IMG/VR virus record: IMGVR_UViG_3300042383_000902
Location: 1 to 38,671 of that record
Direction: 5' to 3' (one strand)
DNA from: a virus
Length of the DNA: 38,671 nucleotides
The position numbers and the translations under genes are program-made. The notes beneath the pieces are model-generated. The model searched no databases. It was not told the DNA's origin and saw nothing but the letters and a program-made list of their open reading frames with translations. This document shows, piece by piece, positions 23,779 through 35,072 of this stretch (position 1 is the first letter of the stretch; each line of letters opens with the position of its first letter).

Positions 23779-23812
23779 TTGACTTGCTCCGGTGTTGTTT
23801 GAATGAGCCACT

Positions 23813-23841: not shown

Positions 23842-23848
23842 ATCTTTT

Positions 23849-23935
23849 TTAACTGTTTAGCCACTCATCGAAAGGTAAAACATACCATCCTAATGCCTCG
23901 GCTTGTGCCACATAAATCAAATAACGGTCATACAT
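23849..23935 (-). CDS. Tiny protein, 28 aa
   Basis: Reads MYDRYLIYVAQAEALGWYVL then PFDEWLNS. It has the full cassette: CCGGAGCAAAAACA before the ATG, a promoter with TTGACA upstream, and the next TTGACA just after its stop. The architecture, not the sequence, makes it a real gene. An amphipathic helix is likely. Confidence 0.68.
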   Translation of the reverse strand: MYDRYLIYVAQAEALGWYVLPFDEWLNS

Positions 23936-23965
23936 TGTTTTTGCTCCGGTTTGTTAAGATGGTTT

Positions 23966-23994
23966 ATTATCGCAGTAGGGCAGGGCAGTGTCAA
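23966..23994 (-). promoter_or_regulatory. Promoter for the 28-aa gene
   Basis: TTGACA (23994-23989), 17-bp spacer, GATAAT (23971-23966). The upstream gene's TGA is in the TTGACA. Confidence 0.85.
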
Positions 23995-24305
23995 TAACAT
24001 TTTATACGTTTCCAATTTGGAAAATACCATCCCGTTGGTTCATCAATGTCACCGCTATATTCTTCGGATAATTCCAATTCATTATCTAAACTGGGTGTGA
24101 AAGTAACGAACTCAGCATCATTATCAGCTGTAATTTCTTCTATTTTGAAACAACATCCAAAGGATGAAATCTTTTTCAATTGAACTGCATTTGGATCAAC
24201 AAATTGATCAATGCCTACCATTATATCCATCATATTACGACCGGTTACCATGCCATGATGTGAAATGGTGTTGTCTTCTTGAACTATTCTAAATGCATAT
24301 AACAT
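23991..24305 (-). CDS. Hypothetical protein, 104 aa
   Basis: Start placed at MLYAFRIVQEDNTISHHG after CAGGAGCAAGTT; an upstream in-frame start would precede the promoter. Acidic C-terminal half (DNELELSEEYSGDIDEP) ending GWYFPNWKRIKCY. No family recognised. Confidence 0.83.
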   Translation of the reverse strand: MLYAFRIVQEDNTISHHGMVTGRNMMDIMVGIDQFVDPNAVQLKKISSFGCCFKIEEITADNDAEFVTFTPSLDNELELSEEYSGDIDEPTGWYFPNWKRIKCY

Positions 24306-24332
24306 AACTTGCTCCTGTGAAATGATGGTGTT

Positions 24333-24360
24333 ATTATACACCACTACAATAATTATTCAA
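24333..24360 (-). promoter_or_regulatory. Promoter for the 104-aa gene
   Basis: TTGAAT (24360-24355), 16-bp spacer, TATAAT (24338-24333). GGTGTTATTATACACC is a dyad over the -10. Confidence 0.8.
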
Positions 24361-24700
24361 GTATTTTGTTAATGGTCACAACTTCGCCAACTCGATCAAA
24401 TAACTTATGTGCGAAATCTGGTATAATCCCCATATCTGATAGCGTTCTGGCGCATTCTGGGCCATATAAATAACGCTTGGCTTCTATACCAGTAAAATAT
24501 AAATTCATGGCTTTATTGCGCTTTACATCCTGTAATGACTCGTAATTGTCATGCTTGTCAATCAATGCTACATCATCAATCGCTTGGATTATCACAGCTA
24601 ATACTAGACGCTTATGTGGTGTCTTGTCTTCTACTTGTTGCCATAATACTGCACCGATATTATCAGCGGTGATGGTGTGTGCTTTGGTTTGGTTTGTCAT
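24353..24700 (-). CDS. Hypothetical protein, 115 aa
   Basis: MTNQTKAHTITADNIGAVLW starts a mostly helical, soluble protein. AAGGAT, rather than GGAGCA, precedes the ATG, so this gene does not share the common ribosome binding site. No family recognised. Confidence 0.85.
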   Translation of the reverse strand: MTNQTKAHTITADNIGAVLWQQVEDKTPHKRLVLAVIIQAIDDVALIDKHDNYESLQDVKRNKAMNLYFTGIEAKRYLYGPECARTLSDMGIIPDFAHKLFDRVGEVVTINKILE

Positions 24701-24718
24701 ATTATATCCTTATGTTGG

Positions 24719-24755
24719 CGCTGTGCATATTAACACAGCTAGCATTGTTGCCTAA
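24719..24755 (-). promoter_or_regulatory. Candidate promoter with hairpin and GCTAGCTG motif
   Basis: GCTGTGTTAATATGCACAGC is a stem-loop holding TAATAT as possible -10 (24732-24727), preceded by AATGCTAGCTG. The -35 (TTAGGC) is poor. Confidence 0.55.
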
Positions 24756-24994
24756 AAGTGATCGTCATCTCCATAGATCAGATCATTGATTCCATTATAA
24801 ATGTGCAGTACAATACCAATGGCATCAGCAATGAAATGTGCAAAGATCAATGCCATTATCAGATATGCAACCAAGGTCACTTCAAATGGTGGTTTAGTTG
24901 TATATTGTACAGGTGCAATTACTTCGATGTGTTTCTTAATACTAAACGGTGGTTTGGTATTCTTTGGGTTGGTGTATAGATCATCGTATTTCAT
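24752..24994 (-). CDS. Single-pass membrane protein, 80 aa
   Basis: Starts at the ATG overlapping the upstream TGA (ATGA), giving MKYDDLYTNPKNTKPPFS. Residues about 40-62 (VTLVAYLIMALIFAHFIADA) are hydrophobic, flanked by a cytoplasmic-looking N-terminal part and an acidic end. Coupled to the 61-aa membrane protein, probably acting with it in the inner membrane. Confidence 0.75.
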   Translation of the reverse strand: MKYDDLYTNPKNTKPPFSIKKHIEVIAPVQYTTKPPFEVTLVAYLIMALIFAHFIADAIGIVLHIYNGINDLIYGDDDHF

Positions 24995-25176
24995 TTGAAC
25001 ACCGGCATGAATAAGATCAAACCAATACCAACCATGATTAACCAAATTGGCTCATGTGTAGTATTAAAAAATGATATACCTGATAACAATAGCAACAATC
25101 CAAAGAAAACCGATGCAACTGCAACTATCCATAACAGGACAACTACCGCGATGATAAAAAATAAGATGCCTAACAT
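24991..25176 (-). CDS. Small membrane protein, 61 aa, two TM helices
   Basis: MLGILFFIIAVVVLLWIVAV and a second hydrophobic segment near residues 43-58 predict a hairpin in the membrane. Its stop overlaps the start of the next membrane gene. AGGTACATT precedes the ATG. Function unknown. Confidence 0.75.
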   Translation of the reverse strand: MLGILFFIIAVVVLLWIVAVASVFFGLLLLLSGISFFNTTHEPIWLIMVGIGLILFMPVFK

Positions 25177-25202
25177 AATGTACCTATTTGATTTGAGCCA
25201 TC

Positions 25203-25231
25203 ATTATAATGGCTCTTGATGTAATTGTCAA
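25203..25231 (-). promoter_or_regulatory. Stem-loop promoter for the two membrane-protein genes
   Basis: TTGACA (25231-25226), 17-bp spacer, TATAAT (25208-25203). GAGCCAT and ATGGCTC pair around it. Confidence 0.9.
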
Positions 25232-25765
25232 CTATTCTTCCATGTTCTCGGTAATGGCGAATTCTTCATCGATATAGTCTGGGATGTTAGCTTTAGCTGA
25301 TTCTAGGTCATCCCATTCATAATCAGTGTATGAGCCATCACAATACTCACCACAATAGCAATTGCCACCTTCATAATAAAAGGCATCGACACCAAAGCCA
25401 AGCTCAACCATTTGATTATAGAATTCAATTGGTGGTGTATTAGCGGTATTAAATCCGACTTTGACATGACCTACACCGCCATCATATAACGTGAAGCAAT
25501 CAGCATCCCACTTTGTACCCCAATTTGCTTTGCAAAAGTAATACGAATTAGAATATCCAAATTTCTTTACATTACGGGTTTCAATACGATTAAAACGTCT
25601 AAATCTGCGTTTATCACCCAGTCTGATAATGTTCTTACACAATGATTTAGGCACTGGTACGAACTCATTAAATAGCTTTCCTGAATTACCAGCTTCCACC
25701 AATCTGTTTAATTGTGTAGCATCTTGGTGGGTGAATGTTACTGTGTTTTGACACCAATTTGGCAT
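25232..25765 (-). CDS. Api92-like/DUF1281-type protein, 177 aa
   Basis: Start placed at MPNWCQNTVTFTH after CGGAGCAAACG. The N-terminal MPNWC.N and the central NWGTKWDAD, with a ferredoxin-like alpha/beta layout and an acidic tail, are the signature of the DUF1281/Api92-like family common in phages and plasmids. No biochemical function is established. The stop abuts the next TTGACA (TAGTTGACA). Confidence 0.88.
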   Translation of the reverse strand: MPNWCQNTVTFTHQDATQLNRLVEAGNSGKLFNEFVPVPKSLCKNIIRLGDKRRFRRFNRIETRNVKKFGYSNSYYFCKANWGTKWDADCFTLYDGGVGHVKVGFNTANTPPIEFYNQMVELGFGVDAFYYEGGNCYCGEYCDGSYTDYEWDDLESAKANIPDYIDEEFAITENMEE

Positions 25766-25798
25766 ATCGTTTGCTCCGAATGTTTGAAAAGAGCCATC

Positions 25799-25827
25799 AT
25801 TATAATGGCTCATTAATGATTTGTCAA
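25799..25827 (-). promoter_or_regulatory. Stem-loop promoter for the DUF1281-type gene
   Basis: TTGACA (25827-25822), 17-bp spacer, TATAAT (25804-25799). GAGCCAT/ATGGCTC dyad, same family as 25203. Confidence 0.9.
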
Positions 25828-25989
25828 CTAATCTAGTTCTTCTAAATCAATATCAACAGTTTCAGTTGATGATACTGTTAAGTAAGGTCTGCTGGATGGG
25901 TTTTTTAAGTATTCTTCAACTTCCAATGCCGCAGCTAATGCACTTTCAGCATCAACGTCAATGGTATAAGTTACTTTGTAAGATGTCAT
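25828..25989 (-). CDS. Small acidic protein, 53 aa
   Basis: Reads MTSYKVTYTIDVDAESALAA with an acidic end (VDIDLEELD). ACGGAGCAAACC-type site before the ATG; stop directly against TTGACA. A predicted beta-alpha-beta fold resembling other small proteins here (26543, 34864) suggests a duplicated micro-fold. No function known. Confidence 0.8.
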   Translation of the reverse strand: MTSYKVTYTIDVDAESALAAALEVEEYLKNPSSRPYLTVSSTETVDIDLEELD

Positions 25990-26018
25990 GGTTTGCTCCG
26001 TTGTGTTAAGATGGGGTT

Positions 26019-26047
26019 ATTATTACATAACCCCGTATTGATGTCAA
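26019..26047 (-). promoter_or_regulatory. Stem-loop promoter (GGGGTTAT type)
   Basis: TTGACA (26047-26042), 17-bp spacer, AATAAT (26024-26019). GGGGTTAT (26013-26020) with ATAACCCC (26027-26034). Confidence 0.9.
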
Positions 26048-26209
26048 TTAAAAATCGAAAGCATCGTTATAAGCTCGTTCGATTTCTTCATCGGATTTAT
26101 CACGGTACAAATCCTGAATAACTGATAATAAATAACCACTATCATTTAAACAAGTATCGAATGTATCGTTGATAACTGCATCACGTTTTTGTTCAATTGT
26201 TGGTGTCAT
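26048..26209 (-). CDS. Small acidic helical protein, 53 aa
   Basis: Reads MTPTIEQKRDAVINDTFDTC and ends IERAYNDAFDF. Same leader (GGAGCAAACC) and same length as the preceding gene but a different, helical sequence. No family recognised. Confidence 0.8.
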   Translation of the reverse strand: MTPTIEQKRDAVINDTFDTCLNDSGYLLSVIQDLYRDKSDEEIERAYNDAFDF

Positions 26210-26238
26210 GGTTTGCTCCGTTGTGTTAAGATGGGGTT

Positions 26239-26267
26239 ATTATTACATAACCCCGAATTGGTGTCAA
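26239..26267 (-). promoter_or_regulatory. Stem-loop promoter (GGGGTTAT type)
   Basis: TTGACA (26267-26262), 17-bp spacer, AATAAT (26244-26239), nearly identical to the cassette at 26019. Confidence 0.9.
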
Positions 26268-26486
26268 CTACTTAATGTTTATTTGTTCAAGTCTGTATAA
26301 CTCAACTTCTGGGTCATACAAATCAATCTCATCATAGGTTTCACAATATTGTTCACCACTGTCTTCATCAGTGTAGTAAAATTCGGTTTCATCGCAAAGG
26401 TCTACTCGATAAAATTCACCGCCAATCGATAGGAACGATGCCGATTGTAATAAACGTCTTTTTTGTTCTGGTGTCATATCATCCAT
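26268..26486 (-). CDS. Very acidic small protein, 72 aa
   Basis: MDDMTPEQKRRLLQSASFLS followed by an Asp/Glu/Tyr-rich body (FYYTDEDSGEQYCETYDE). The acidity suggests a DNA mimic or a protein inhibitor, but this is only inference. GCGGAGTTACC precedes the ATG. Confidence 0.82.
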   Translation of the reverse strand: MDDMTPEQKRRLLQSASFLSIGGEFYRVDLCDETEFYYTDEDSGEQYCETYDEIDLYDPEVELYRLEQINIK

Positions 26487-26516
26487 TTGGTAACTCCGCT
26501 GTGTTAAGATGGGGCT

Positions 26517-26546
26517 ATTATTACATAGCCCTGATGTTTATGTCAA
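26517..26546 (-). promoter_or_regulatory. Stem-loop promoter (GGGGCTAT type)
   Basis: TTGACA (26546-26541), 18-bp spacer, AATAAT (26522-26517). The right arm has lost one C (ATAGCCC). Confidence 0.85.
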
Positions 26547-26713
26547 ATCATTTCGTCAGTAAAATTGATACAACCAAAATCAATTTCACCATAAAATTCT
26601 GGATCAGTGTGTAATTTGTCATTCAAATAGTTCAAGGTATCATCGACATCCATTGCGGTATCAACTGGTACATAAACTGTTAATTTCACTTCTACTGCTC
26701 TAAATTTTGCCAT
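26543..26713 (-). CDS. Small acidic protein, 56 aa
   Basis: Reads MAKFRAVEVKLTVYVPVDTA and ends INFTDEMI. It overlaps the upstream stop (TAATG), and the last codons of that gene supply the GGAGCA site, so the two are co-translated and it has no promoter of its own. Its TGA lies in the following TTGACA. Confidence 0.8.
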   Translation of the reverse strand: MAKFRAVEVKLTVYVPVDTAMDVDDTLNYLNDKLHTDPEFYGEIDFGCINFTDEMI

Positions 26714-27123
26714 TATTCTGCTCCAAGTTTAAAAAGTGTGATAGGATGAGATGTTTGAGTTTCACCGTCTATTACTGGGTATGCAATGGCAGTTGTGGAA
26801 TTGACTATGTTAATGTCAATGTTATCATTGAATGAATGCCACCAATCATCAATCCCTTTGTCAGCCATTGCTACATCAACCGCGACTGCAATCAATTCAG
26901 GTTTGCGAGTTTCGATTTCCTTTAAGATTGTTTGAACACCAACTACACAATGATTGTCTTTAACCCATTGTGGAACTAGGTCTTCAAAACCTGCAATATC
27001 ATCAGTAGTTAAAATGTCACCCGCTTTGATGTTATCAACATCAATCAACAAGGTATTAACATCAGCGTCATTGATAATATCGGCCATACCATTGGTTACT
27101 ACTACTAATACTCGATTACTCAT
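26713..27123 (-). CDS. Hypothetical protein, 136 aa
   Basis: MSNRVLVVVTNGMADIINDA starts an alpha/beta protein with alternating strands (VLVVVTNG, LLIDVDN, LIAVAVDVAM), suggesting a Rossmann-like or ubiquitin-like core, and an acidic surface. No catalytic motif recognised. TGGAGCAAAC precedes the ATG. Confidence 0.83.
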   Translation of the reverse strand: MSNRVLVVVTNGMADIINDADVNTLLIDVDNIKAGDILTTDDIAGFEDLVPQWVKDNHCVVGVQTILKEIETRKPELIAVAVDVAMADKGIDDWWHSFNDNIDINIVNSTTAIAYPVIDGETQTSHPITLFKLGAE

Positions 27124-27153
27124 TTGTTTGCTCCATCGTGTTAAGATAGGGCT

Positions 27154-27182
27154 ATTATTACATAACCCAGTATTGGTGTCAA
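27154..27182 (-). promoter_or_regulatory. Stem-loop promoter for the 136-/56-aa gene pair
   Basis: TTGACA (27182-27177), 17-bp spacer, AATAAT (27159-27154). Confidence 0.87.
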
Positions 27183-27186
27183 GTGA

Positions 27187-27657
27187 TTAGAAACTACAAG
27201 CTAATGAAATTAAACGTCCATAACGATTATGGAATTCCGTAAATGTACCGTCATGGTTGATTAAACTAATATCGCAATTAACTTTTTCTCTAGCCAGTAA
27301 ATACTTTAGAATGGCAATGATAAAGACTGGTTCTGTAAACGCTGGTGGTATATGGTTGAGTAGTGTTAGCCATTGTTCATTAGTCCAAGGACTATTGTTA
27401 AATTCAGGTGGTCTATATTGATTGAATGATTCACCAGAACGTAAGATTTCACGGGTTTCTAGTACCAACTCATTTGAACCATTAAACCGTCCATCACTAA
27501 CATAACAATTGTTTGGGTCTTGATAGGTTAGTGGGTTTGTGAAGTTATCCATCATGTATGACATCAATCTATTCATTGCATAACTACAATCTTGGATGTT
27601 GTCTTTAACATCAATACAGGCTTGCATAAGTGTTAGTGATTGGGTAAATTTGTTCAT
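27187..27657 (-). CDS. Hypothetical protein, 156 aa
   Basis: MNKFTQSLTLMQACIDVKDN starts a helical protein with a Trp/Pro-rich middle (PPEFNNSPWTNEQWL) and LINHDGTFTEFHNRYGRLI near the end. No family recognised. AAGGAGCAAAC precedes the ATG. Confidence 0.83.
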   Translation of the reverse strand: MNKFTQSLTLMQACIDVKDNIQDCSYAMNRLMSYMMDNFTNPLTYQDPNNCYVSDGRFNGSNELVLETREILRSGESFNQYRPPEFNNSPWTNEQWLTLLNHIPPAFTEPVFIIAILKYLLAREKVNCDISLINHDGTFTEFHNRYGRLISLACSF

Positions 27658-27680
27658 TGTTTGCTCCTTGATTTAGGGCT

Positions 27681-27710
27681 ATTATTACATAGCCCTGATG
27701 TTTATGTCAA
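27681..27710 (-). promoter_or_regulatory. Stem-loop promoter for the 156-aa gene
   Basis: TTGACA (27710-27705), 18-bp spacer, AATAAT (27686-27681), with GGGCTAT/ATAGCCC arms. Confidence 0.85.
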
Positions 27711-28015
27711 GCTGTTTGTTTTGCTTTTTCTACTACCCATTCACCATTTTCATCATAAGTGATGACTAATGGTTTTTCTACCATTGATGGGTAAACAGTT
27801 GGAAACATTGTGAACAGTGATGATACCGCGCGAACATCCCAGTTATCGATAATATCGAAACAGGCTTCTTTAGCGTATTTTTTCTTTTTGTAGTAGTCCA
27901 ATGGTTTTCTATCTAGGAATAATCTGATAGCATGGATTGAAATATCGAATCCATTATTATCGAATTCATGGTTGATATGTTGTTTGATTTTATCTTTAAT
28001 TGTTTCGTATTTCAT
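27707..28015 (-). CDS. Hypothetical protein, 102 aa
   Basis: MKYETIKDKIKQHINHEFDN starts a basic, helical protein (YYKKKKYAKEACFDII) ending in KAKQTA. Possible nucleic-acid or ribosome contact; no family recognised. ACGGAGCAGATC precedes the ATG. Confidence 0.83.
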   Translation of the reverse strand: MKYETIKDKIKQHINHEFDNNGFDISIHAIRLFLDRKPLDYYKKKKYAKEACFDIIDNWDVRAVSSLFTMFPTVYPSMVEKPLVITYDENGEWVVEKAKQTA

Positions 28016-28041
28016 GATCTGCTCCGTGTTAAGATGGGGCT

Positions 28042-28070
28042 ATTATACAATAAACCCAAACTGGTGTCAA
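28042..28070 (-). promoter_or_regulatory. Stem-loop promoter for the 102-aa gene
   Basis: TTGACA (28070-28065), 17-bp spacer, TATAAT (28047-28042). The dyad here is weaker (GGGTTTA/ATAGCCC). Confidence 0.87.
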
Positions 28071-28247
28071 CTAATCAATCATTAAATAGGGTGTGCCGAC
28101 TTCTAATGTGTCAGATTCATCTGAGTATACAAGATCACCCCATACACCCGCAAACTCTCCAGCATCAATTAAAAGAACAGTCACAGGTTTTTCTAGGTCT
28201 TCTGGTGACATTTGGTTAAGTTTGTTTAGTAAGTCTTTATAAATCAT
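28071..28247 (-). CDS. Small acidic protein, 58 aa
   Basis: Reads MIYKDLLNKLNQMSPEDLEK then VTVLLIDAGEFAGV. Start overlaps the upstream stop (ATGA). It is the last gene of a four-gene mini-operon (28632-28808, 28441-28635, 28244-28441, 28071-28247). No family recognised. Confidence 0.8.
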   Translation of the reverse strand: MIYKDLLNKLNQMSPEDLEKPVTVLLIDAGEFAGVWGDLVYSDESDTLEVGTPYLMID

Positions 28248-28441
28248 TTGTACGCTCCAGTTACTTTGTCATAGATCTCTTGATAGACTGCACCTTGGTA
28301 GTCACCGTCATCGAAGTCTAGTGTAGCACATCTTTCAAGGTATTGCAACTTGGTTTCACTAGACTTTCTTGCGTAAATATCTTTATAAAGATCATAGGCA
28401 TCTGGCTGTCTTAATACTAATACAATATAATCCTGTAACAT
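28244..28441 (-). CDS. Small protein, 65 aa
   Basis: MLQDYIVLVLRQPDAYDLYK starts a helical, charged protein with an acidic patch (LDFDDGDY). Linked by TAATG to the gene before it and ATGA to the gene after it. GGAGCAAAAA within the upstream gene supplies its binding site. Confidence 0.82.
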   Translation of the reverse strand: MLQDYIVLVLRQPDAYDLYKDIYARKSSETKLQYLERCATLDFDDGDYQGAVYQEIYDKVTGAYK

Positions 28442-28635
28442 TATTTTTGCTCCATCACTCGATTGATATAATTATTGGCTTGTTCAATGGTCTTGAACTG
28501 TTTGACGTATTGTGTAACCCAGTAGGCTTCCTGTCTAATGCTATCGAACTTAAACATTTTAACGATAACAGTAGGTTTATCTGCTGGTGTTAAACGTGCA
28601 TTTAATGTACCTAATGCTGGTTGTTGGTATGTCAT
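28441..28635 (-). CDS. Small protein, 64 aa
   Basis: MTYQQPALGTLNARLTPADK starts the protein; the second half (FKTIEQANNYINRVM) is helical. Coupled on both sides (ATGA upstream, TAATG downstream) within the mini-operon. No family recognised. Confidence 0.82.
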   Translation of the reverse strand: MTYQQPALGTLNARLTPADKPTVIVKMFKFDSIRQEAYWVTQYVKQFKTIEQANNYINRVMEQK

Positions 28636-28808
28636 GCTTTACTCCAATTGAGCCAGCACATATTGATAACTGCATTAGGTTTATTCCATTTAGCTAATGC
28701 TAATTGACCAGCATCAATTATATTATCTGCCTTGATGTTTTTAAAAATCTTATCAACAAACGAACGTTTGCCATTGTGATAAGATAAGATAACTGTGTAA
28801 GTGTTCAT
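28632..28808 (-). CDS. Small basic protein, 58 aa
   Basis: Reads MNTYTVILSYHNGKRSFVDK and ends NMCWLNWSKA. First gene of the mini-operon, preceded by AAGGAGCGAAGT. The start MN.YTV.L resembles that of the 58-aa protein at 34864 and may mark a shared micro-family. Confidence 0.82.
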   Translation of the reverse strand: MNTYTVILSYHNGKRSFVDKIFKNIKADNIIDAGQLALAKWNKPNAVINMCWLNWSKA

Positions 28809-28834
28809 ACTTCGCTCCTTCCTAAGTTGGTTGT

Positions 28835-28863
28835 ATTATCGCAGTTTTTAAAAAACTTGTCAA
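28835..28863 (-). promoter_or_regulatory. Promoter for the four-gene mini-operon
   Basis: TTGACA (28863-28858), 17-bp spacer, GATAAT (28840-28835). The TGA of the upstream tiny gene is inside the TTGACA. Confidence 0.87.
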
Positions 28864-28979
28864 TACACTTTTACTTTTCTCTTGCCACACTTGTTATTAA
28901 TCATTCGGTAATTCGGTAATACTACCTTTACACGATCTAGCCATATATCTTCATATATGTTTTGCAATTGGTATCTCAT
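28860..28979 (-). CDS. Tiny basic protein, 39 aa
   Basis: Reads MRYQLQNIYEDIWLDRVKVV and ends NKCGKRKVKVY. AAGGAGCAAACCAC precedes the ATG and a cassette promoter lies upstream. Strongly basic end, possibly nucleic-acid binding. Confidence 0.75.
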   Translation of the reverse strand: MRYQLQNIYEDIWLDRVKVVLPNYRMINNKCGKRKVKVY

Positions 28980-29007
28980 GTGGTTTGCTCCTTCTTAAGA
29001 TGGTTGT

Positions 29008-29035
29008 ATTATACAGCAACCAAATCAGATGTCAA
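29008..29035 (-). promoter_or_regulatory. Promoter for the 39-aa gene, inside the upstream CDS
   Basis: TTGACA (29035-29030), 16-bp spacer, TATAAT (29013-29008). The whole -35 to -10 lies inside the last codons of the 76-aa gene, whose TAA is in the -10. GGTTG/CAACC arms flank the -10. Confidence 0.87.
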
Positions 29036-29239
29036 CCCAACTTTTGAATAATAATGTTTTTTAATCCATTCAATCTGCCAAGGCTCAATATCGCGGTCTA
29101 TCTTTGCACCTTGTTTACCAGTGCTTGATTTGCGCCAGTTCACTAGATCATAATACCAGTATGATTTCAAGTCTTGATGGAATGTCATAGTAGTTTCGAT
29201 GACTTCCAAGATATTGCCATTTAGATTAAATGTTAACAT
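29009..29239 (-). CDS. Hypothetical protein, 76 aa
   Basis: The ATG at 29245 abuts the GGAGCA, so I use the next one (MLTFNLNGNILEVIETT), six bases on. The protein has a WRKSSTGKQGAKI basic loop. Its last eleven codons read through the neighbouring promoter, ending VGLTSDLVAV. If the cassette was inserted here, these residues are encoded by it. Confidence 0.8.
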   Translation of the reverse strand: MLTFNLNGNILEVIETTMTFHQDLKSYWYYDLVNWRKSSTGKQGAKIDRDIEPWQIEWIKKHYYSKVGLTSDLVAV

Positions 29240-29268
29240 GATCATTGCTCCTTGTTAAGATGGGTGTA

Positions 29269-29296
29269 ATTATACACGATTGAATTTTAAATGCAA
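29269..29296 (-). promoter_or_regulatory. Promoter for the 76-aa gene
   Basis: TTGCAT (29296-29291), 16-bp spacer, TATAAT (29274-29269), immediately downstream of the terminator of the AAA gene. Confidence 0.82.
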
Positions 29297-29300
29297 CAAA

Positions 29301-29340
29301 AAAGAAAACCCCATTAGAGGGAGCAATCTCTAATGGGGTT
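29301..29340 (-). terminator. Rho-independent terminator of the AAA ATPase gene
   Basis: On the minus strand, AACCCCATTAGAG (29340-29328), an 8-nt loop ATTGCTCC, and CTCTAATGGGGTT (29319-29307) make a perfect 13-bp stem followed by TTTCTTTTTT. This is the best intrinsic terminator in the window. Its loop is the exact complement of the GGAGCAAT ribosome binding site. Confidence 0.93.
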
Positions 29341-29370
29341 ATACAATGTTGGCATCATCGCCAACGGGGA

Positions 29371-29399
29371 TTGACAGGCTTTCTGGGAGCAATCATACT
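29371..29399 (+). promoter_or_regulatory. Possible plus-strand promoter in the hairpin region
   Basis: TTGACA (29371-29376), 17-bp spacer, CATACT (29394-29399). It would transcribe antisense to the AAA gene, and the RNA strand would show GGGAGCAAU in loops. It may only reflect the dyads present here. Confidence 0.35.
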
Positions 29400-29432
29400 T
29401 GCCTGTCTTGGAGCTTAGGCTATTGCCTACGT

Positions 29433-30242
29433 TTAACCTTTCATTAAGGTGACCTTTGCTACTCGCTTCCATTTATAATCGTCTGGAAACGCATCAGCTA
29501 ATTCAGCGGTCTTTACAACACTTCTTAATGATAATTGTAACTTTGATGTATTATTACACACAAAATCAACTACTTCTTCTTTCGTATGGTCAGACAATTT
29601 TAACTCATCTAACATACCATCTTCAACCACTTGTTTAATTCTTAACAACTTCTCACGGGTGGTGTGAACAGTTAAATCAAGAAAATGTGACCGATCTGTC
29701 AAAGCATCTAAATGGCTTCTCAATACCTTACTGCGAAAATGGTTAAAGTTAATGTTAGTAATGAATATCACACTACCACAAAACTCAAATGTATTAGGAA
29801 TGTTTTCATACTTCAATGCATTACTTTCATAATGCCAGCTTAAAATTCGCTTCCTATTGCTATCTAATGCCGATTTAAGCATATTAATAGCACGATCATC
29901 TTTGAATACATCATCGCTATCATCAAACACCACGACACTATTCTCATGGCGATATTCGTATAACTTCATGAATAAACCCAATGCACCAATCGCGCCTTTA
30001 ACGATTTCGTACTTCTTCAAAGTTTCATCTTGAGCAATCCTAGCAACAGTATCATATTGCGCTAAGACCTTCTGTACACCATGCGACTTGCCAACACCGG
30101 GCGCACCTGATACAATTAATGACCGAACCTTACCAACCTTACACGCCATTGTCATATCTTCCAAAATCTCAAACCGTTCTCTCAAACGTTCCATGATTTC
30201 TTCATCAGTTTCAACTACGGCATCCATTACTGTTTCTAACAT
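29433..30242 (-). CDS. AAA-type P-loop ATPase
   Basis: A 269-residue ATPase. Walker A GAPGVGKS is at residues 46-53, Walker B VVVFDDSDD at about 102-110, and a sensor-1 Asn near 162 in VIFITN. The C-terminal part is helical (sensor-2/lid region). It lacks obvious accessory domains. Similar short AAA ATPases occur in T4-like phages of marine bacteria, with unclear targets; remodelling of a replication or host complex is inference. AGGAAGAG precedes the ATG, a strong promoter lies upstream and a structured terminator region downstream. Confidence 0.9.
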   Translation of the reverse strand: MLETVMDAVVETDEEIMERLRERFEILEDMTMACKVGKVRSLIVSGAPGVGKSHGVQKVLAQYDTVARIAQDETLKKYEIVKGAIGALGLFMKLYEYRHENSVVVFDDSDDVFKDDRAINMLKSALDSNRKRILSWHYESNALKYENIPNTFEFCGSVIFITNINFNHFRSKVLRSHLDALTDRSHFLDLTVHTTREKLLRIKQVVEDGMLDELKLSDHTKEEVVDFVCNNTSKLQLSLRSVVKTAELADAFPDDYKWKRVAKVTLMKG

Positions 30243-30272
30243 CGCTCTTCCTAGTGGTTAATATTGTGTCAA

Positions 30273-30301
30273 ATTATACAGCTTAAAAAAGTCTATGTCA
30301 A
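30273..30301 (-). promoter_or_regulatory. Promoter for the AAA ATPase gene
   Basis: TTGACA (30301-30296), 17-bp spacer, TATAAT (30278-30273). Confidence 0.9.
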
Positions 30302-30396
30302 GTATTAAATCAACATATTCTAAAAATCAGTGTTTTTTCCCTTTATAAATCAATAACTTACAGGAGCAAAAAACGTGTTTCTTCGTTATTTGTGTA

Positions 30397-30420
30397 TACC
30401 CTGTAGGGTAGTACAGGGTA
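30397..30420. terminator. Hairpin downstream of the tRNA genes
   Basis: TACCCTGT and ACAGGGTA form a perfect 8-bp stem with an 8-nt loop. No U-tract follows on the minus strand, so it may be an RNA-processing or weak termination site for the tRNA transcript. Confidence 0.5.
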
Positions 30421-30450
30421 TGATATTAAAATGTAAAATAACGGCATTAT

Positions 30451-30525
30451 TGGCACCCTTAGAAGGAATCGAACCTCCATTCTGGGAGTAGAAATCCCAT
30501 GTCCTATCCATTAAACGATAAGGGC
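30451..30525 (-). tRNA. tRNA-Arg (TCT)
   Basis: 75 nt on the minus strand. The acceptor stem is GCCCTTA with TAAGGGT (first pair G-U), discriminator G and encoded CCA. Anticodon arm TGGGA-TTTCTAC-TCCCA reads TCT, decoding AGA, which is frequent in AT-rich phage genes. T-arm GGAGG-TTCGATT-CCTTC is clear. It is probably cotranscribed with the upstream tRNA from the promoter at 30735-30764. Confidence 0.93.
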
Positions 30526-30530
30526 AAAAA

Positions 30531-30660
30531 ACCATATAGTAAAACATCCTGATACTCTCACAGCCTTTGATGTCTAGGTTGTACACCCTAGATTGTGGAT
30601 TTGAACCACCCAAGACGGATACTTTTAATACCCTACTAACAAGATGTTTTACTATATGGT
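30531..30660 (-). other. Structured insert between the two tRNAs with 18-bp terminal inverted repeats
   Basis: Perfect 18-bp inverted repeats (30531-30548 and 30643-30660) enclose 94 bp. The right arm includes the encoded CCA of tRNA-Met. Inside, on the minus strand, GTGGTTCAAATCCAC (30609-30595) is a T-arm-like hairpin containing the GGTTCAAATCC B-box, TCTAGG/CCTAGA (30592-30573) forms another hairpin, and GGGTA-TTAAAAG-TATCC could mimic an anticodon arm. No complete cloverleaf can be drawn. It may be a decayed tRNA, a stable phage RNA, or a small inserted element. Confidence 0.55.
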
Positions 30661-30732
30661 GCCCCGACATGGAATCGAACCATGATCAACCGGTTATGAG
30701 CCGGACGCTTGTAACCAATAAGCTATCGGGGC
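30657..30732 (-). tRNA. tRNA with CAT anticodon (Met, or Ile2)
   Basis: 76 nt on the minus strand. Acceptor GCCCCGA/TCGGGGC, discriminator A, encoded CCA. The anticodon loop CTCATAA gives CAT. It could be elongator tRNA-Met, or tRNA-Ile if modified to lysidine; sequence alone does not settle this. T-arm CATGG-TTCGATT-CCATG is perfect. Confidence 0.93.
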
Positions 30733-30734
30733 AA

Positions 30735-30764
30735 ATTATACCCTATCAGTTTGAGCATTGTCAA
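30735..30764 (-). promoter_or_regulatory. Promoter of the tRNA cluster
   Basis: TTGACA (30764-30759), 18-bp spacer, TATAAT (30740-30735), 3 nt before tRNA-Met. ACCCTATCA (30740-30748) and TGATAGGGT (30771-30779) form an inverted repeat around the promoter, followed on the plus strand by TTTTTATT, so the same dyad could be a plus-strand terminator. A degenerate copy (AAGCCTCT...GCTCAA, with TTACAATA/TATTGTAA arms) lies just upstream at about 30786-30824. Confidence 0.85.
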
Positions 30765-30815
30765 GAGGCTTGATAGGGTTTTTTATTACAATAGGGTTGA
30801 GCTTCTACGAGAGGC

Positions 30816-30908
30816 TTATTGTAACATATTAACTAAATCAATTACAACTATTGTTGAAATCGTTGCGACCAATAATACAAACAAGTATGATAAGATCTCA
30901 ACTCTCAT
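30816..30908 (-). CDS. Tiny single-TM protein, 30 aa
   Basis: Reads MRVEILSYLFVLLVATISTI then VVIDLVNMLQ, almost entirely one hydrophobic helix. Its start overlaps the stop of the 26-aa gene (ATGA). Last gene of a membrane-protein mini-operon. Confidence 0.6.
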   Translation of the reverse strand: MRVEILSYLFVLLVATISTIVVIDLVNMLQ

Positions 30909-30985
30909 TGTAACACCACATACAATACAAACACAAGTATAATAGTGGCAATCATCGGTGCAAGTATTTCAAACACTTCTTTCAT
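30905..30985 (-). CDS. Tiny single-TM protein, 26 aa
   Basis: Reads MKEVFEILAPMIATIILVFV then LYVVLQ. Its ATG overlaps the upstream TGA (ATGA) and its TGA overlaps the next ATG. The chain of overlaps with two other membrane proteins supports translation despite the length. Confidence 0.6.
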   Translation of the reverse strand: MKEVFEILAPMIATIILVFVLYVVLQ

Positions 30986-31227
30986 AGAAAAACCACCGCC
31001 ATCATGAATACAAAACCAATTAATGGAATCAATACTGCATTACTCCAAAATGGATAATATGCTGGTTGCTCTTTCACTGATAGATCAATGGCTTCAACTC
31101 GTTCCACCGCTACATCACCTTGTTTATACTTCTCGGTTGCTTTCATAAAATTCTCAAAATTCAATGTTTGTTTAGACTTTAATTCTGTTAAATAATGACG
31201 CTTTAGGACACTATCTTCTGGTATCAT
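30982..31227 (-). CDS. C-tail-anchored membrane protein, 81 aa
   Basis: MIPEDSVLKRHYLTELKSKQ starts a charged cytoplasmic-looking domain; residues about 58-81 (FWSNAVLIPLIGFVFMMAVV) form one C-terminal helix. AAAGGAAA overlaps the end of the upstream gene and is its binding site. Function unknown. Confidence 0.78.
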   Translation of the reverse strand: MIPEDSVLKRHYLTELKSKQTLNFENFMKATEKYKQGDVAVERVEAIDLSVKEQPAYYPFWSNAVLIPLIGFVFMMAVVFL

Positions 31228-31228
31228 G

Positions 31229-31423
31229 TTAATTTCCTTTAACTGGTTGTATTGTATAACTTGGAAGCTCTTTTGTCAATACAATTTCCTCATTATTTTC
31301 TACCATTGGTTTCTCAACCATAGTAGCCACAACATCATGAATTCTACGCTGATCAACAAATACTATTGCATATATTACAATAGCAAATGTAATAACAAGT
31401 AAGAAAGTATCAAACTTTTTCAT
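31229..31423 (-). CDS. N-terminally anchored membrane protein, 64 aa
   Basis: Starts MKKFDTFLLVITFAIVIYAI, a single N-terminal membrane helix or signal anchor, then a charged domain likely in the periplasm. Its ATG is one base after a TATAAT, so transcripts from that promoter would miss it. Translation must come from the upstream read-through message, since it overlaps the end of the 54-aa gene. Confidence 0.72.
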   Translation of the reverse strand: MKKFDTFLLVITFAIVIYAIVFVDQRRIHDVVATMVEKPMVENNEEIVLTKELPSYTIQPVKGN

Positions 31424-31574
31424 AATTATACACCATTTCACATACTATGTCAAGTAAACTATACTTGTAATTGATCCATGCTTCACGCGGTGTATTACCA
31501 GTTCCATAATGTCCAGCACTATCTTCGCATATCCAAATGCCTTTGTCAATTCTTATTTTCGGCAATTCTTTCAC
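31410..31574 (-). CDS. Small protein with GTG start, 54 aa
   Basis: The reading frame starts GTG with GAGGAAG 6 nt upstream, giving (M)KELPKIRIDKGIWICEDSAG and a GHYGTGNTPREAWINY segment typical of small phage proteins with a GxTPxEAW motif. It overlaps the gene before by 29 nt and the gene after by 14 nt. The overlapping arrangement fits the rest of this operon. Confidence 0.65.
   Translation of the reverse strand: MKELPKIRIDKGIWICEDSAGHYGTGNTPREAWINYKYSLLDIVCEMVYNYEKV
31425..31453 (-). promoter_or_regulatory. Promoter inside the 54-aa gene
   Basis: TTGACA (31453-31448), 17-bp spacer, TATAAT (31430-31425). It would start transcription within the 64-aa gene and so mainly serve the downstream tiny membrane genes. 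Confidence 0.8.
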
Positions 31575-31749
31575 CTTTATCTTCCTCCGGCTTATTTATC
31601 TCCCATTCACTAGGATTAAAATTATGCCAGTTCTTACTAATCAATACAGCATCACCGCTCTCATTGATCTTTAACGTTTTACCGTTAAACTTATTAACCA
31701 ATTCTTTACGGTCAATTAATGCCTTAAACAATTCTTCATGATTTTTCAT
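31546..31749 (-). CDS. Small charged protein, 67 aa
   Basis: MKNHEELFKALIDRKELVNK starts a very charged protein with WHNFNPSEWEINKPEEDKGE. GGAAG lies 7 nt before the ATG, inside the end of the 54-aa gene upstream. No family recognised. Confidence 0.78.
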   Translation of the reverse strand: MKNHEELFKALIDRKELVNKFNGKTLKINESGDAVLISKNWHNFNPSEWEINKPEEDKGERIAENKN

Positions 31750-31900
31750 CTAATACTTCCATGACATCATCATCTTGGGTCCAAATAACCTCAAATCCAT
31801 CAGCAATATAATACCACAATCCCGATGCCTTTGCAAATTCTTTCGCCATCTTTAAAAATGGAAATAAACTTGTTCTACCTTCAATATACACCTGAAACAT
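31736..31900 (-). CDS. Small protein, 54 aa
   Basis: Reads MFQVYIEGRTSLFPFLKMAK and ends DDDVMEVLDEKS. It starts in a TGATG overlap with the 64-aa gene upstream and GGAGGGGG is its binding site. It overlaps the next gene by 14 nt. Confidence 0.75.
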   Translation of the reverse strand: MFQVYIEGRTSLFPFLKMAKEFAKASGLWYYIADGFEVIWTQDDDVMEVLDEKS

Positions 31901-32094
31901 CAAACCCCCTCCATTACGGTAATTTCATTCGGATAACCATCTTCTATCACCAATTTACGCCTCACTTGCTGCTGACTTAAATTGTCTGGATATAATACAA
32001 TATCAATTACTGCCTTGTCAAGTAAAACCTGCCAAGCTTTAAACTTGGCAGTGGGTGAATCTGGTGCTGGGAACTCACCATATTCTACAATCAT
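31900..32094 (-). CDS. Small protein, 64 aa
   Basis: MIVEYGEFPAPDSPTAKFKA starts a protein with a helical middle (LLDKAVIDIVLYP). It is linked by ATGA to the 51-aa gene and TGATG to the 54-aa gene. No family recognised. Confidence 0.78.
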   Translation of the reverse strand: MIVEYGEFPAPDSPTAKFKAWQVLLDKAVIDIVLYPDNLSQQQVRRKLVIEDGYPNEITVMEGV

Positions 32095-32246
32095 CTCAAT
32101 TCTACTTCAAATGAACCATTATAACCATAATGCAAAATCAATGTACGCTTAACAGTTTTTGCATCATATGAGGCTGGAAAGTACACAACATCGCGAATTC
32201 GATCACCTTGAATTACTTTCCATGCTAATCGTTTGAAAATCGCCAT
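32091..32246 (-). CDS. Small basic protein, 51 aa
   Basis: Reads MAIFKRLAWKVIQGDRIRDV and ends YNGSFEVELR. It starts directly after the csrA stop (TAAATG), so it is translated from the csrA message and may work with CsrA. Confidence 0.75.
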   Translation of the reverse strand: MAIFKRLAWKVIQGDRIRDVVYFPASYDAKTVKRTLILHYGYNGSFEVELR

Positions 32247-32432
32247 TTATGCCAATTCCTTTTTGTTGCCTTCCTTTTGAATACGATCATAGATTTCTTC
32301 ACGATGTACCGATACCGACTTTGGCGCATTCACACCAATCTTGATCTGATTACCAACTAATCCCAACACAGTTACAGTTACATCATCACCAATCATAATG
32401 GTTTCGCCTACTTTACGTGTCAATACTAACAT
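32247..32432 (-). CDS. csrA: Phage-encoded CsrA post-transcriptional regulator
   Basis: A 61-residue homologue of CsrA/Rsm[21 protein letters not shown] is almost identical in pattern to the E. coli protein, and [15 protein letters not shown] keeps the conserved RNA-binding region including Arg44; Leu4 and Arg6 are also kept. CsrA dimers bind GGA in 5' leaders and hairpin loops, usually blocking ribosomes. CGGAGTAAAC precedes the ATG and itself contains GGA, so autoregulation is possible. Most early genes in this region have a GGAGCA binding site, making them conceivable targets. It heads an overlapping seven- to ten-gene operon of small and membrane proteins. Confidence 0.95.
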
Positions 32433-32465
32433 CTTGTTTACTCCGTTGTTGTTTAAAAAACCGTT

Positions 32466-32493
32466 ATTATAACAAACTAAAATAATCTGTCAA
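32466..32493 (-). promoter_or_regulatory. csrA promoter with flanking inverted repeat
   Basis: TTGACA (32493-32488), 16-bp spacer, TATAAT (32471-32466). ACAAACTAAAAT (32472-32483) and ATTTTAGTTTGT (32500-32511) are perfect 12-bp inverted repeats flanking the -35, a plausible operator. Confidence 0.87.
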
Positions 32494-32512
32494 CAAATAA
32501 TTTTAGTTTGTA

Positions 32513-32539
32513 GAATGGTATCGAATCGATACCATTCTT
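32513..32539. repeat. 27-bp perfect palindrome
   Basis: AGAATGGTATCGA, a central A and TCGATACCATTCT. It can form a 12-bp hairpin with a 3-nt loop on either strand and lies between two promoters upstream of csrA. It may be an operator or a terminator without U-tract. Confidence 0.85.
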
Positions 32540-32679
32540 ATCTGTATCCTCTATTATACTGGGCTATGCCCATTCTATCATATTAAACTACAAAGTGGAA
32601 TCTCTAATTTTATGCATCTCATGCATCCTAGTTGGCCAGTTAAAAGATGGGATTATTGTTACATAACCCCAGAATAATG

Positions 32680-32937
32680 TCAAACTAATTCTTTACGAAC
32701 TAATACTGAAATGATATAAACATCATCATCCATTTCAAACTCGATGTTACCGTAATCATTTATACCAATGGTATCAATATCAGTTTCATAAAACTCAGAT
32801 ATACTACAAATATCCTCATCAATTGAAAAGTAGTCCTCGCCTATCCCTGCGATAGTTACCGTACCATCAAACTGAATCGCCTCAGCTTGATCTAAAATTT
32901 CCAATAATTGCATGAATGTAATTTTTCTTTCAATCAT
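32680..32937 (-). CDS. Very acidic small protein, 85 aa
   Basis: Start placed at MIERKITFMQLLEILDQAEA after GCGGAGCAAAGCG; an upstream in-frame start lies before the promoter. Asp/Glu-rich (IDEDICSISEFYETDIDTI). Acidity suggests an inhibitor or DNA mimic, but no family is recognised. Confidence 0.83.
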   Translation of the reverse strand: MIERKITFMQLLEILDQAEAIQFDGTVTIAGIGEDYFSIDEDICSISEFYETDIDTIGINDYGNIEFEMDDDVYIISVLVRKELV

Positions 32938-32967
32938 CGCTTTGCTCCGCTGTGTTAAGATGGGGTT

Positions 32968-32996
32968 ATTATTACATAACCCCAAACTGGTGTCAA
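32968..32996 (-). promoter_or_regulatory. Stem-loop promoter (GGGGTTAT type)
   Basis: TTGACA (32996-32991), 17-bp spacer, AATAAT (32973-32968), GGGGTTAT/ATAACCCC arms. Confidence 0.9.
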
Positions 32997-33379
32997 ACTA
33001 TTTCATCAGGAATTTCAACTTCATTACCCAATTTACTTGTAACATAACAGCGCATAGCCGCTATTAATGCAGTATTACAGTATGGTCCACGTTTGCCAAC
33101 TTCGATAAAATCAACAATACTATCATCCCAGATTCTAGCTTGCCAATCTGATTCCCGTGCATCTAATGTGATACGTTCCCGTTCAACGATAACACCACCC
33201 ACTGACCAATTAACTGATGGATTGTAAAAACAATCTGGCACTTTAAATGCAGGGATAGTAAGCTGGTGCGAGGCATGGTGCAATCCAATAGTGTCCCCGT
33301 ATACCAAATGTGGATATTCACACATGGCAACAGCATAGTCCAGCGCCAGCCCACTCAATTCGGTGGTTTTAATAATCAT
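32993..33379 (-). CDS. NinX/DUF2591-like phage protein
   Basis: A 128-residue protein. TTELSGLALDYAVAMCE at the start, VNWSVGGVIVERERI in the middle and NTALIAAMRCYVTSKLGNEVEIP at the end match the DUF2591 (NinX-like) family found in many gammaproteobacterial phages. Function unknown. TGGAGCAATC precedes the ATG. Presence of this family supports a gammaproteobacterial host. Confidence 0.9.
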   Translation of the reverse strand: MIIKTTELSGLALDYAVAMCEYPHLVYGDTIGLHHASHQLTIPAFKVPDCFYNPSVNWSVGGVIVERERITLDARESDWQARIWDDSIVDFIEVGKRGPYCNTALIAAMRCYVTSKLGNEVEIPDEIV

Positions 33380-33410
33380 AATGATTGCTCCATCACGTTA
33401 AGATGGGGCT

Positions 33411-33439
33411 ATTATTACATAACCCCAAACTGGTGTCAA
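33411..33439 (-). promoter_or_regulatory. Stem-loop promoter for the DUF2591-like gene
   Basis: TTGACA (33439-33434), 17-bp spacer, AATAAT (33416-33411). Arms GGGGCTAT and ATAACCCC include a G-T wobble pair. Confidence 0.9.
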
Positions 33440-33646
33440 CTACTTTACATACCCAACAGTAGGTTTTTCATATAATGCTACACTATGAATGGTTGTCATC
33501 ACCAGACCAGTAGTTCGTCTAATATGATCGGTAACCACGTTACGTGCATTGGCTTCACTATCAGCCATTACAAAATCAACTCTGCGTGGATAATTGCAAT
33601 GTGGTTGATTTTGCCATACTACTTGATATTCTTTTAATTCACTCAT
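33440..33646 (-). CDS. Small protein, 68 aa
   Basis: The first ATG is inside ATGGAGCA, so the start used is MSELKEYQVVWQNQP. The DFVMADSEANARNVV segment suggests a beta-alpha-beta fold resembling short phage proteins with a DxExxA helix. No function known. Confidence 0.82.
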   Translation of the reverse strand: MSELKEYQVVWQNQPHCNYPRRVDFVMADSEANARNVVTDHIRRTTGLVMTTIHSVALYEKPTVGYVK

Positions 33647-33675
33647 TTTCTGCTCCATCACGTTAAGATGGGGTT

Positions 33676-33704
33676 ATTATTACATAACCCCGTATTGGTG
33701 TCAA
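33676..33704 (-). promoter_or_regulatory. Stem-loop promoter for the 68-aa gene
   Basis: TTGACA (33704-33699), 17-bp spacer, AATAAT (33681-33676), GGGGTTAT/ATAACCCC arms. Confidence 0.9.
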
Positions 33705-34123
33705 TCGTTATTGTAATCAAATTCGCCATTGGCTTTGGCTTGCTCACTCTCACACGCCAAAGCTTGATCTATTAGAAACGTGACAAAACCTTGATTGGTT
33801 TCTATGCCTGATAATACTCGCTTTATTCGACTTACTGAATGACAAGCCGTTAATTCAACTACACCATAAAAGACCTTGTTAATGTCTGCCACCAGTAAAT
33901 CATAACTGGTTTGGTAGACTTCCATTAAATCGTTTAATTCCAATTCTGCGGTTTCTGCATAAGCAAGTGTATCAAACTCAGCAATGATATTACCACATGA
34001 AATATCATCAGTTGAACTATTTTTTAATCGCGTTAATATAGCCGCTTTGAACTCATCATCATCACCAAATACCCGCTCAACATCCGCTGGAATCGATACC
34101 GTTACTTTATAATCTATGCTCAT
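33701..34123 (-). CDS. Hypothetical protein, 140 aa
   Basis: MSIDYKVTVSIPADVERVFG starts a mostly helical acidic protein with AYAETAELELNDLMEV and an end DYNND. GGAGCAATAAAG precedes the ATG. It has no clear promoter of its own and probably shares the message of the two genes upstream. Stop lies in the next TTGACA. Confidence 0.83.
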   Translation of the reverse strand: MSIDYKVTVSIPADVERVFGDDDEFKAAILTRLKNSSTDDISCGNIIAEFDTLAYAETAELELNDLMEVYQTSYDLLVADINKVFYGVVELTACHSVSRIKRVLSGIETNQGFVTFLIDQALACESEQAKANGEFDYNND

Positions 34124-34145
34124 CTTTATTGCTCCATAAAAAAGG

Positions 34146-34298
34146 TTATTGTACTACATTAAAAACTTCTCGTCTATCTAATTCACGACAAATCAACTCA
34201 TGAATCCTTTGATCCTTCGCATTGTCCGAATGATAATAGAAGTCTATTCTACGATATAACTCATCAGTTGTCAACTGGCTGATCTGTTTCTCGTTCAT
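34146..34298 (-). CDS. Small charged protein, 50 aa
   Basis: Start placed at MNEKQISQLTTDELYRRIDF, which follows the upstream gene by 4 nt with GGGG within its last codons. A helical protein with a high share of charged residues, ending DRREVFNVVQ. Confidence 0.75.
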   Translation of the reverse strand: MNEKQISQLTTDELYRRIDFYYHSDNAKDQRIHELICRELDRREVFNVVQ

Positions 34299-34302
34299 AT
34301 AT

Positions 34303-34557
34303 TTAACCCCAATTTTCAAATTGCAGTAACATATCGCGTAATTGATTACCTTCAATTAGCTCATGATTGTATAATAACACAGCCGCTTTCACTATGTCAA
34401 CAAATTGTAAATCATAATCGGCTACCCAATCACCTTCACCATCATATACCGCGATGCCTTTTACATAAACACCACTATCAATCAATTCCTGTTTGGTATC
34501 TGCTGAACTGATATTGTCAGAAGTACCACCAATATACCTTACTGTAAATTCACTCAT
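34303..34557 (-). CDS. Hypothetical protein, 84 aa
   Basis: MSEFTVRYIGGTSDNISSAD starts a beta-rich N-terminal half (VYVKGIAVYDGEGDWVADY) followed by helices (IVKAAVLLYNHELIEGNQL). No family recognised. CGGAGCAAGAC precedes the ATG. Confidence 0.83.
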   Translation of the reverse strand: MSEFTVRYIGGTSDNISSADTKQELIDSGVYVKGIAVYDGEGDWVADYDLQFVDIVKAAVLLYNHELIEGNQLRDMLLQFENWG

Positions 34558-34583
34558 GTCTTGCTCCGTGTTAAGATGGGGCT

Positions 34584-34612
34584 ATTCTCTCATAACCCCA
34601 GATTGATGTCAA
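34584..34612 (-). promoter_or_regulatory. Stem-loop promoter with degraded -10
   Basis: TTGACA (34612-34607), 17-bp spacer, GAGAAT (34589-34584). Arms GGGGTTATG and ATAGCCCC are kept although the -10 is weakened. Confidence 0.75.
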
Positions 34613-34615
34613 CTA

Positions 34616-34867
34616 TTAAATTGCTTCGGTGATATACAAAAATTCAATTTTATTCAAGGTCATGATCTCTTGAATTTGGTCACGAATCCAAGCATGATAA
34701 TCAGTTGTTCGCTTGACAACTGAAATAGCAGTTTTACGTCCCTCTGGATACAATCCAGCAACAAATAACGCATTTTCGATCTCACCATAAGGTTTACCAG
34801 TATGCGACTGTAACGCACTTATAAGGTCTTCAACTTCACATGATACTTGCGTTTTTAATGTGGTCAT
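34616..34867 (-). CDS. Hypothetical protein, 83 aa
   Basis: MTTLKTQVSCEVEDLISALQ starts a helical protein; ALFVAGLYPEGRKTAIS is in the centre. Coupled to the 58-aa gene by an ATGA overlap; GGAGAAGCAGA is its binding site. No family recognised. Confidence 0.82.
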   Translation of the reverse strand: MTTLKTQVSCEVEDLISALQSHTGKPYGEIENALFVAGLYPEGRKTAISVVKRTTDYHAWIRDQIQEIMTLNKIEFLYITEAI

Positions 34868-35040: not shown

Positions 35041-35072
35041 GCTTATTGCTCCGTTACGTTGAAAGAGCTGAT

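Follow-up and report, generated by a model that had tools for sequence, protein, structure and literature searches.

Hairpin loops complementary to the shared early-gene Shine-Dalgarno sequence in the 3'UTR of a phage AAA ATPase gene: a candidate antisense RNA

We analysed a 38.7-kb IMG/VR virus record (IMGVR_UViG_3300042383_000902; its full 38,671 nucleotides are referred to as the window) and consider it fairly probable, on sequence evidence, that the 3'UTR of its AAA ATPase gene gives rise to an antisense RNA that acts in trans against the phage's own shared early Shine-Dalgarno (SD) sequence, which would hide the SD and damp or end early translation. The folded RNA probably pairs with a set of the virus's own genes, because relatives with another docking site have correspondingly other loops, and it most likely switches that gene set off. 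The structure, the invariance of the loops, the match between loop and SD, their co-change between phage groups and a second carrier gene without the target motif are established from the comparisons described below.

The AAA 3'UTR and the early-gene block of the window

The plus strand of the window carries T4-type replication genes, and the minus strand carries a block of small genes. The AAA gene (29433..30242, minus strand) is a homologue of T4 nrdC.10 (PHROG 1250); its product matched nrdC.10-annotated genes at approximately 40% in tblastn and phrog_1250 at 2.1e-75. A putative sigma70-type promoter of this gene was read from the sequence, by consensus match only, at 30273..30301 (minus strand; TTGACA at 30301–30296, 17 nt, TATAAT at 30278–30273).

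The minus-strand RNA at 29291–29432 folded at −51.6 kcal/mol, compared with −31.8 ± 3.9 kcal/mol for shuffled sequences (z −5.06, 0/200), which confirmed the four hairpins that an earlier reading of the sequence without database searches (the sequence-only reading) had placed in this 3'UTR. Hairpins A (29416..29429) and C (29348..29365), both on the minus strand, have loops without SD complementarity. Hairpin B (29373..29407, minus strand) has a 21-nt loop that contains AUUGCUCC at 29393–29386. Hairpin D (29296..29340 including the U tract, minus strand) consists of 13 bp (29340–29307) closed by an 8-nt loop, which is AUUGCUCC (29327–29320), and is followed by UUUUCUUUUUU. With a GC-rich stem and a U tract on the transcript strand, hairpin D is an intrinsic terminator and an SD-complementary loop in one. 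The terminator role accounts for its position, not for its loop. The claim that two loops display AUUGCUCC held in that both copies are exact, but the loop of hairpin B is less tidy than claimed, with only a 2-bp UG/CA inner pairing flanking the motif. These are the only two copies on the minus strand of the window, and when the UTR was dinucleotide-shuffled 20,000 times, no shuffle contained two copies, in agreement with the earlier judgement that a repeated loop is unlikely to be chance. No Rfam family scored above its gathering score on the element in the window and ten relatives.

The loop AUUGCUCC is the complement of GGAGCAAU, the SD of minus-strand early genes, as in the next gene, where GGAGCAAU at 29244..29251 (minus strand) is an 8-nt complement of the loop. 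The putative regulon is the early-gene block at 18815..37669 (minus strand), where 32 ORFs have GGAGCA before the start; all 32 are on the minus strand between 18.8 and 37.7 kb, and the plus strand has none. Contiguous complementarity to the loop extends over 8 bases in 6 of these ORFs, 7 in 17 and 6 in 9. The window contains 28 copies of GGAGCAA where 3.4 are expected (a plus-strand GGAGCAA at 30363–30369 is a third copy, outside the element), GGAGCAN{2,8}ATG sites number 34 on the reverse strand and 1 on the forward strand, and GGAGCA accounts for 26/34 in the SD tally of the window. The sequence-only reading had assigned GGAGCAA to dozens of early genes; that number is right for GGAGCA (32), and for GGAGCAA it is about 23.

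We also considered a CsrA sponge transcribed from the opposite strand, with GGA in its loops and acting on a phage CsrA. On the plus strand the loops would read GGAGCAAU, and the window has a CsrA homologue (32247–32432, minus strand; PF02599, 1.5e-26). CsrA sponges of the CsrB/RsmZ type have several hairpins with a repeated loop motif, a feature common to both RNAs, but their loops are GGA, whereas those of the phage element are CUCC-type on the transcribed strand. Against a sponge, the U tracts and the carrier gene assign the RNA to the minus strand, of 25 related records only this one yielded CsrA, and the loops change with the SD. This idea was dropped as most improbable: GGA loops are absent from the transcribed strand, and the loops on the U-tract strand are AUUGCUCC.

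Loops and SD sequences in relatives

Viral contigs were scanned for pairs of GATTNGCTCCC at a distance of 15–45 nt. This gave 66 stretches, against approximately 2.4 expected from a uniform-base estimate; about 14 of them, which were coding repeats or unrelated, were excluded. Approximately 45 contigs had an AAA homologue (53–58%) with loops AUUCGCUCC shortly 3' of the stop codon, and the loop GAUUCGCUCCC behind AAA homologues often occurred in two or three hairpins with different stems. In the nearest relative of the first AAA search (L003, 56% identity), three hairpins directly follow the AAA gene, every one with the loop AUUCGCUCC, and the fold gave a z of −7.96. The GGAG-type SDs in these contigs were GGAGCG in 195 cases versus GGAGCA in 59 (26 from the window and 33 outside it), and the RBS logo of the AUUCGCUCC-loop contigs reads A-GGAGCG-A(.78)A(.69).

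Among 59 distinct hairpin sequences, the 11-mer G-AUUCGCUCC-C was constant and the flanks were mostly 30–50% conserved; the hairpins were collected by this 11-mer, so its invariance is partly a matter of selection. The loops are accessible, with a mean unpaired probability of 0.75 versus 0.39 elsewhere. In 21 aligned second hairpins, compensatory changes in the outer stem occurred in 8–10 sequences at each of 5 pairs. One hairpin type has 15 invariant nucleotides, including CCG/CGG closing pairs. Ordinary transcription terminators whose loops match by chance would explain the U tract at hairpin D and the U tracts that end the second hairpins of many relatives, but such terminators are already contradicted by the comparative data, namely loops that stay invariant on differing stems across dozens of contigs, frequently with a separate terminator further downstream. 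We therefore give this explanation almost no credence.

Searches beyond these contigs concerned the exact window loop, hosts and cultured carriers. The GATTGCTCCC double pattern matched only coding repeats, and the exact window loop was consequently not found elsewhere in the sequences searched, from which near relatives may be missing. The pattern CCCCN{3,10}ATTGCTCCN{3,10}GGGGTT gave 68 stretches in viral contigs, which is about chance by our own estimate. No cultured carrier was found in the phage collection, where the nearest AAA relatives were at 41–49% (PA5oct group), the 3' end of the PA5oct AAA gene was without loops, and no phage record matched the winged-helix protein described in the next section. 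A scan of genome contigs for GATTCGCTCCC pairs returned bacterial interspersed palindromes and coding repeats and gave no clue to the host. The palindromes (GCGAATAGCCTTCGGCTGATTCGCTCCCACAGG) that contain GATTCGCTCCC belong to Oceanospirillaceae and Natronospirales genomes (L236, L250, L268 and other bacterial contigs) and are, as far as seen, unrelated to the phage element.

A second AAA clade (L165, L168, L169, L170, L177 and L194) uses the SD (G)AGGGCA, and its AAA 3'UTRs contain one to three copies of (T/A)GCCCUC, mostly in hairpin loops. This class was first spotted by looking for SD complements, and more members were then fetched by protein homology. All five further contigs (L280, L282, L284, L285 and L287) had the SD AGGGC (5–13 genes) and two or three GCCCUC copies; they are a check rather than an independent origin because they belong to the same clade as the first members. 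The expectation that relatives with the same binding site carry the same loops was thus borne out by the approximately 45 GGAGCG contigs with AUUCGCUCC and by the (G)AGGGCA clade with GCCCUC.

We then compared 64 dereplicated AAA loci chosen by AAA protein homology alone. With kin loci treated as independent, ATTCGCTCC was present within 2.5 kb in 18/20 GGAGCG loci versus 4/44 others (Fisher p 3e-10), and at least two GCCCTC copies were present in 8/9 AGGGC loci versus 0/55 others (Fisher p 2e-9). In both GGAGCG loci without ATTCGCTCC, the contigs stop 0.5–0.8 kb after AAA. Among 37 whole records, ATTCGCTCCC occurred in 12/13 GGAGCG-using contigs of the sister clade and in 0/9 contigs of other SD type. 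The 8-mer complementarity between UTR and RBS was.17 and.16 within class and.01–.04 for most off-class pairs (.13 for GGAGAT, represented by two loci). Duplex energies were also best within class; GCCCUC with AGGGC RBSs gave −10.5, versus −6.4 with the other loop. In the AAA tree, one supported set contains the AUUCGCUCC loci together with the window, and the GCCCUC loci form a different set, which indicates that loop and SD changed together in at least two lineages; such co-changes are few, and the window is on a long branch.

This natural compensatory change of loop and target agrees in the two large SD classes and the window, with L160, L203 and L216 as exceptions. The sequence-only reading had named unchanged loops in relatives with another SD as evidence against itself; none were seen in the large classes, but these three GGAGCA-leaning relatives kept CGCUCC. 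The loops of L160 are UCGCUCC, and its SD sites are GGAGCA in 14 cases versus GGAGCG in 1. GGAGCA-leaning SDs with a CGCUCC loop also occur in L158, L166, L203 and L216, and L197 and L228 have CCGCUCC loops together with a further conserved GGUAGUGUCC hairpin. About five to six pairs are left in the exception loci. These GGAGCA-leaning relatives are the main evidence against strict matching of loop and SD. In L097 and L112, the loops are present and GGAGCG sites are few.

The exceptions bear on another explanation, in which the invariant GAUUCGCUCCC loop is the site of a phage or host protein and its match to the SD is incidental. Loops unchanged in some GGAGCA-leaning relatives and the 15 invariant nucleotides, CCG/CGG closing pairs included, of one hairpin type are what such a site would give. 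However, the loop sequence tracks the SD class across clades, the closing stems differ among hairpins, and a single protein would not recognise both loop and SD, given that each is the complement of the other. Protein-binding hairpins are in our view distinctly improbable.

Two side observations were made on loops of other kinds. In L172, L197 and L228, the conserved hairpin with the GGUAGUGUCC loop lies next to the CCGCUCC hairpin, 130 nt 3' of the winged-helix gene; these phages have GGAGCA(C)-type SDs, and UAGUGU could pair with the ACACUAUG start regions seen in them. In the AAA 3'UTRs of L221 and L224, where the SD is AGAGGA, UCCUCU occurs in hairpin regions, and the 7-mer complementarity was 0.6–0.7 versus 0 in the reversed control. 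These two loci were left aside as a fourth class because the case is too weak, UCCUCU being close to a generic anti-SD.

A second carrier gene and action in cis or trans

In the sister clade, the loop lies 24–42 nt 3' of the stop codon of a small winged-helix gene (HTH_39-like, PHROG 4973) that is unrelated to AAA. The loop was present in this 3'UTR at 73/81 distinct loci. These loci were found by protein, separately from the 11-mer, and 71 of the 73 loops contained GATTCGCTCCC. The gene's own RBS had GGAGC in 0/81 loci and is typically AGGAAAC, while 39% of the neighbouring ORFs with an SD had GGAGCG. The carrier locus is thus separate from the targets, and the winged-helix gene cannot use the loop on itself via its SD.

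These data bear on the possibility that pairing takes place within the AAA mRNA, between its 3'UTR loops and its own SD, and that only this gene is controlled. In favour of it, almost every relative with the element has GGAGCG as the RBS of AAA itself, and in the other clade this RBS is (G)AGGGC. An SD complementary to its own 3'UTR loop was found in most AAA carriers, in none of the winged-helix carriers tested and imperfectly in the window. There, the loop fits the common GGAGCAAU (8 nt) better than the AGGAAGAGCGAUG of AAA (7 pairs, one of them G-U). Furthermore, a promoter-like sequence in L097 and L112 is followed by two loop hairpins without an intervening ORF. The winged-helix carrier suggests trans action and speaks against simple autoregulation, and we regard control of the AAA gene only as unlikely. 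Since most AAA carriers have a matching SD themselves, AAA may in addition be autoregulated, and part of the loop/SD signal at AAA could be cis. In the icaR-type cis autoregulation of Staphylococcus aureus, a C-rich motif in the 3'UTR complements the SD and acts on its own mRNA. The phage element shares the 3'UTR motif directed at an SD, but its second carrier is without a target in its own RBS.

The core of the sequence-only reading, an antisense RNA addressed to the common early SD and acting in trans, is supported by the loops of the relatives and by the winged-helix carrier; as a whole, that interpretation is supported in part.

Proposed mechanism, known systems and other features of the window

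From these features we infer that a stable RNA is made, that it pairs in the cell and represses, and when it does so. The RNA would be driven by the AAA gene's own early promoter, end at hairpin D, and either be cut from the AAA mRNA or be active as part of it. Its loops would show the complement of the extended early SD (in the window, AUUGCUCC versus GGAGCAAU), and a kissing interaction of 6–8 bp between loop and SD would hide the SD from the ribosome. The sigma70-type promoter of AAA suggests that the RNA would build up in the early phase and damp early translation; as it accumulates, translation of the whole early block would be damped or ended. The extension past GGAG (CAA, CGAA or GCAA) would serve as the address that the RNA reads: it is conserved without pairing to the 16S anti-SD and should therefore need another reader, which the RNA could supply.

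An antisense RNA of this kind might instead have as its main targets superinfecting relatives with the same SD, or host mRNAs, rather than the phage's own early timing. The CUCC in the loops can pair with any GGAG SD, and the extended SD is common to many related phages, so that a resident RNA would hit the early genes of an incoming relative. On the other hand, loops directed mainly at host mRNAs would not be expected to follow the phage's own extended SD, as these do. We consider such targets improbable as the principal ones and continue to favour the phage's own early genes.

The T4 RegA protein is a translational repressor that acts at the start region of many early genes and turns them off. 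Both would be early-gene shut-off devices; RegA is a protein, and the phage element would be an RNA working by base pairing. In S. aureus, UCCC loops of RNAIII and the Rsa sRNAs pair with the SDs of several mRNAs and repress translation (PMC3861533). The phage element likewise has C-rich hairpin loops, several per RNA. Unlike in those RNAs, the phage loop is 8–9 nt long and complements an extended SD that the phage's early genes have in common, changes with the SD between phage groups and sits in phage 3'UTRs. The PHIKZ298 3'UTR of phiKZ gives a separate RNA species of approximately 100 nt with two stem-loops including the terminator (PMC8545117), a structured phage 3'UTR-derived RNA like the one proposed here. 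It shows that phages do make 3'UTR-derived species. It comes from another phage group, and the available part of that report describes no target or SD complementarity. Characterised phage sRNAs mostly have one or a few phage or host genes as targets (reviewed in PMC12197685). Our literature search, which lay mostly outside subscription journals, found no report of a phage RNA that targets the SD common to the phage's own genes.

We tentatively put forward, as somewhat less than an even prospect, that a large T4-related group of uncultivated phages uses a lineage-specific extended-SD "password" on its early genes and antisense RNA(s) with complementary loops, that one RNA controls the whole early regulon, and that password and reader change together. 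If so, a single phage RNA would read the RBS itself and thereby control an entire class of the phage's genes, and this would account for dozens of early genes sharing bases past the ribosome-pairing GGAG. Translational incompatibility between related phages that share a cell may also be set by the co-changing password and reader, and simple reporters would suffice to test the naturally retargeted loop/SD pair. RNAs of this kind could be sought in other phages by the same presence/absence logic.

Three further features of the window were noticed. An Rfam abiF RNA match (RF03085, 47.1 bits, gathering 37) lies at 30741–30777 (minus strand), just upstream of tRNA-Met, and no AbiF gene was noticed adjoining it. 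Cyanophage S-CREM1 is reported to have an abiF RNA (PMC9964418), and the RNA in the window could be a decoy for a host AbiF-type system. The UvsW-like helicase ORF at 6426–9011 (plus strand) has an apparent intein-like insertion (GAGKCQPYSSKVLTN ... VTHNTITT), judged by eye only. Finally, a short dinucleotide-type repeat at 19046–19284, between the early block and other genes, gives (ST)n, (GA)n and (LV)n ORFs on both strands.
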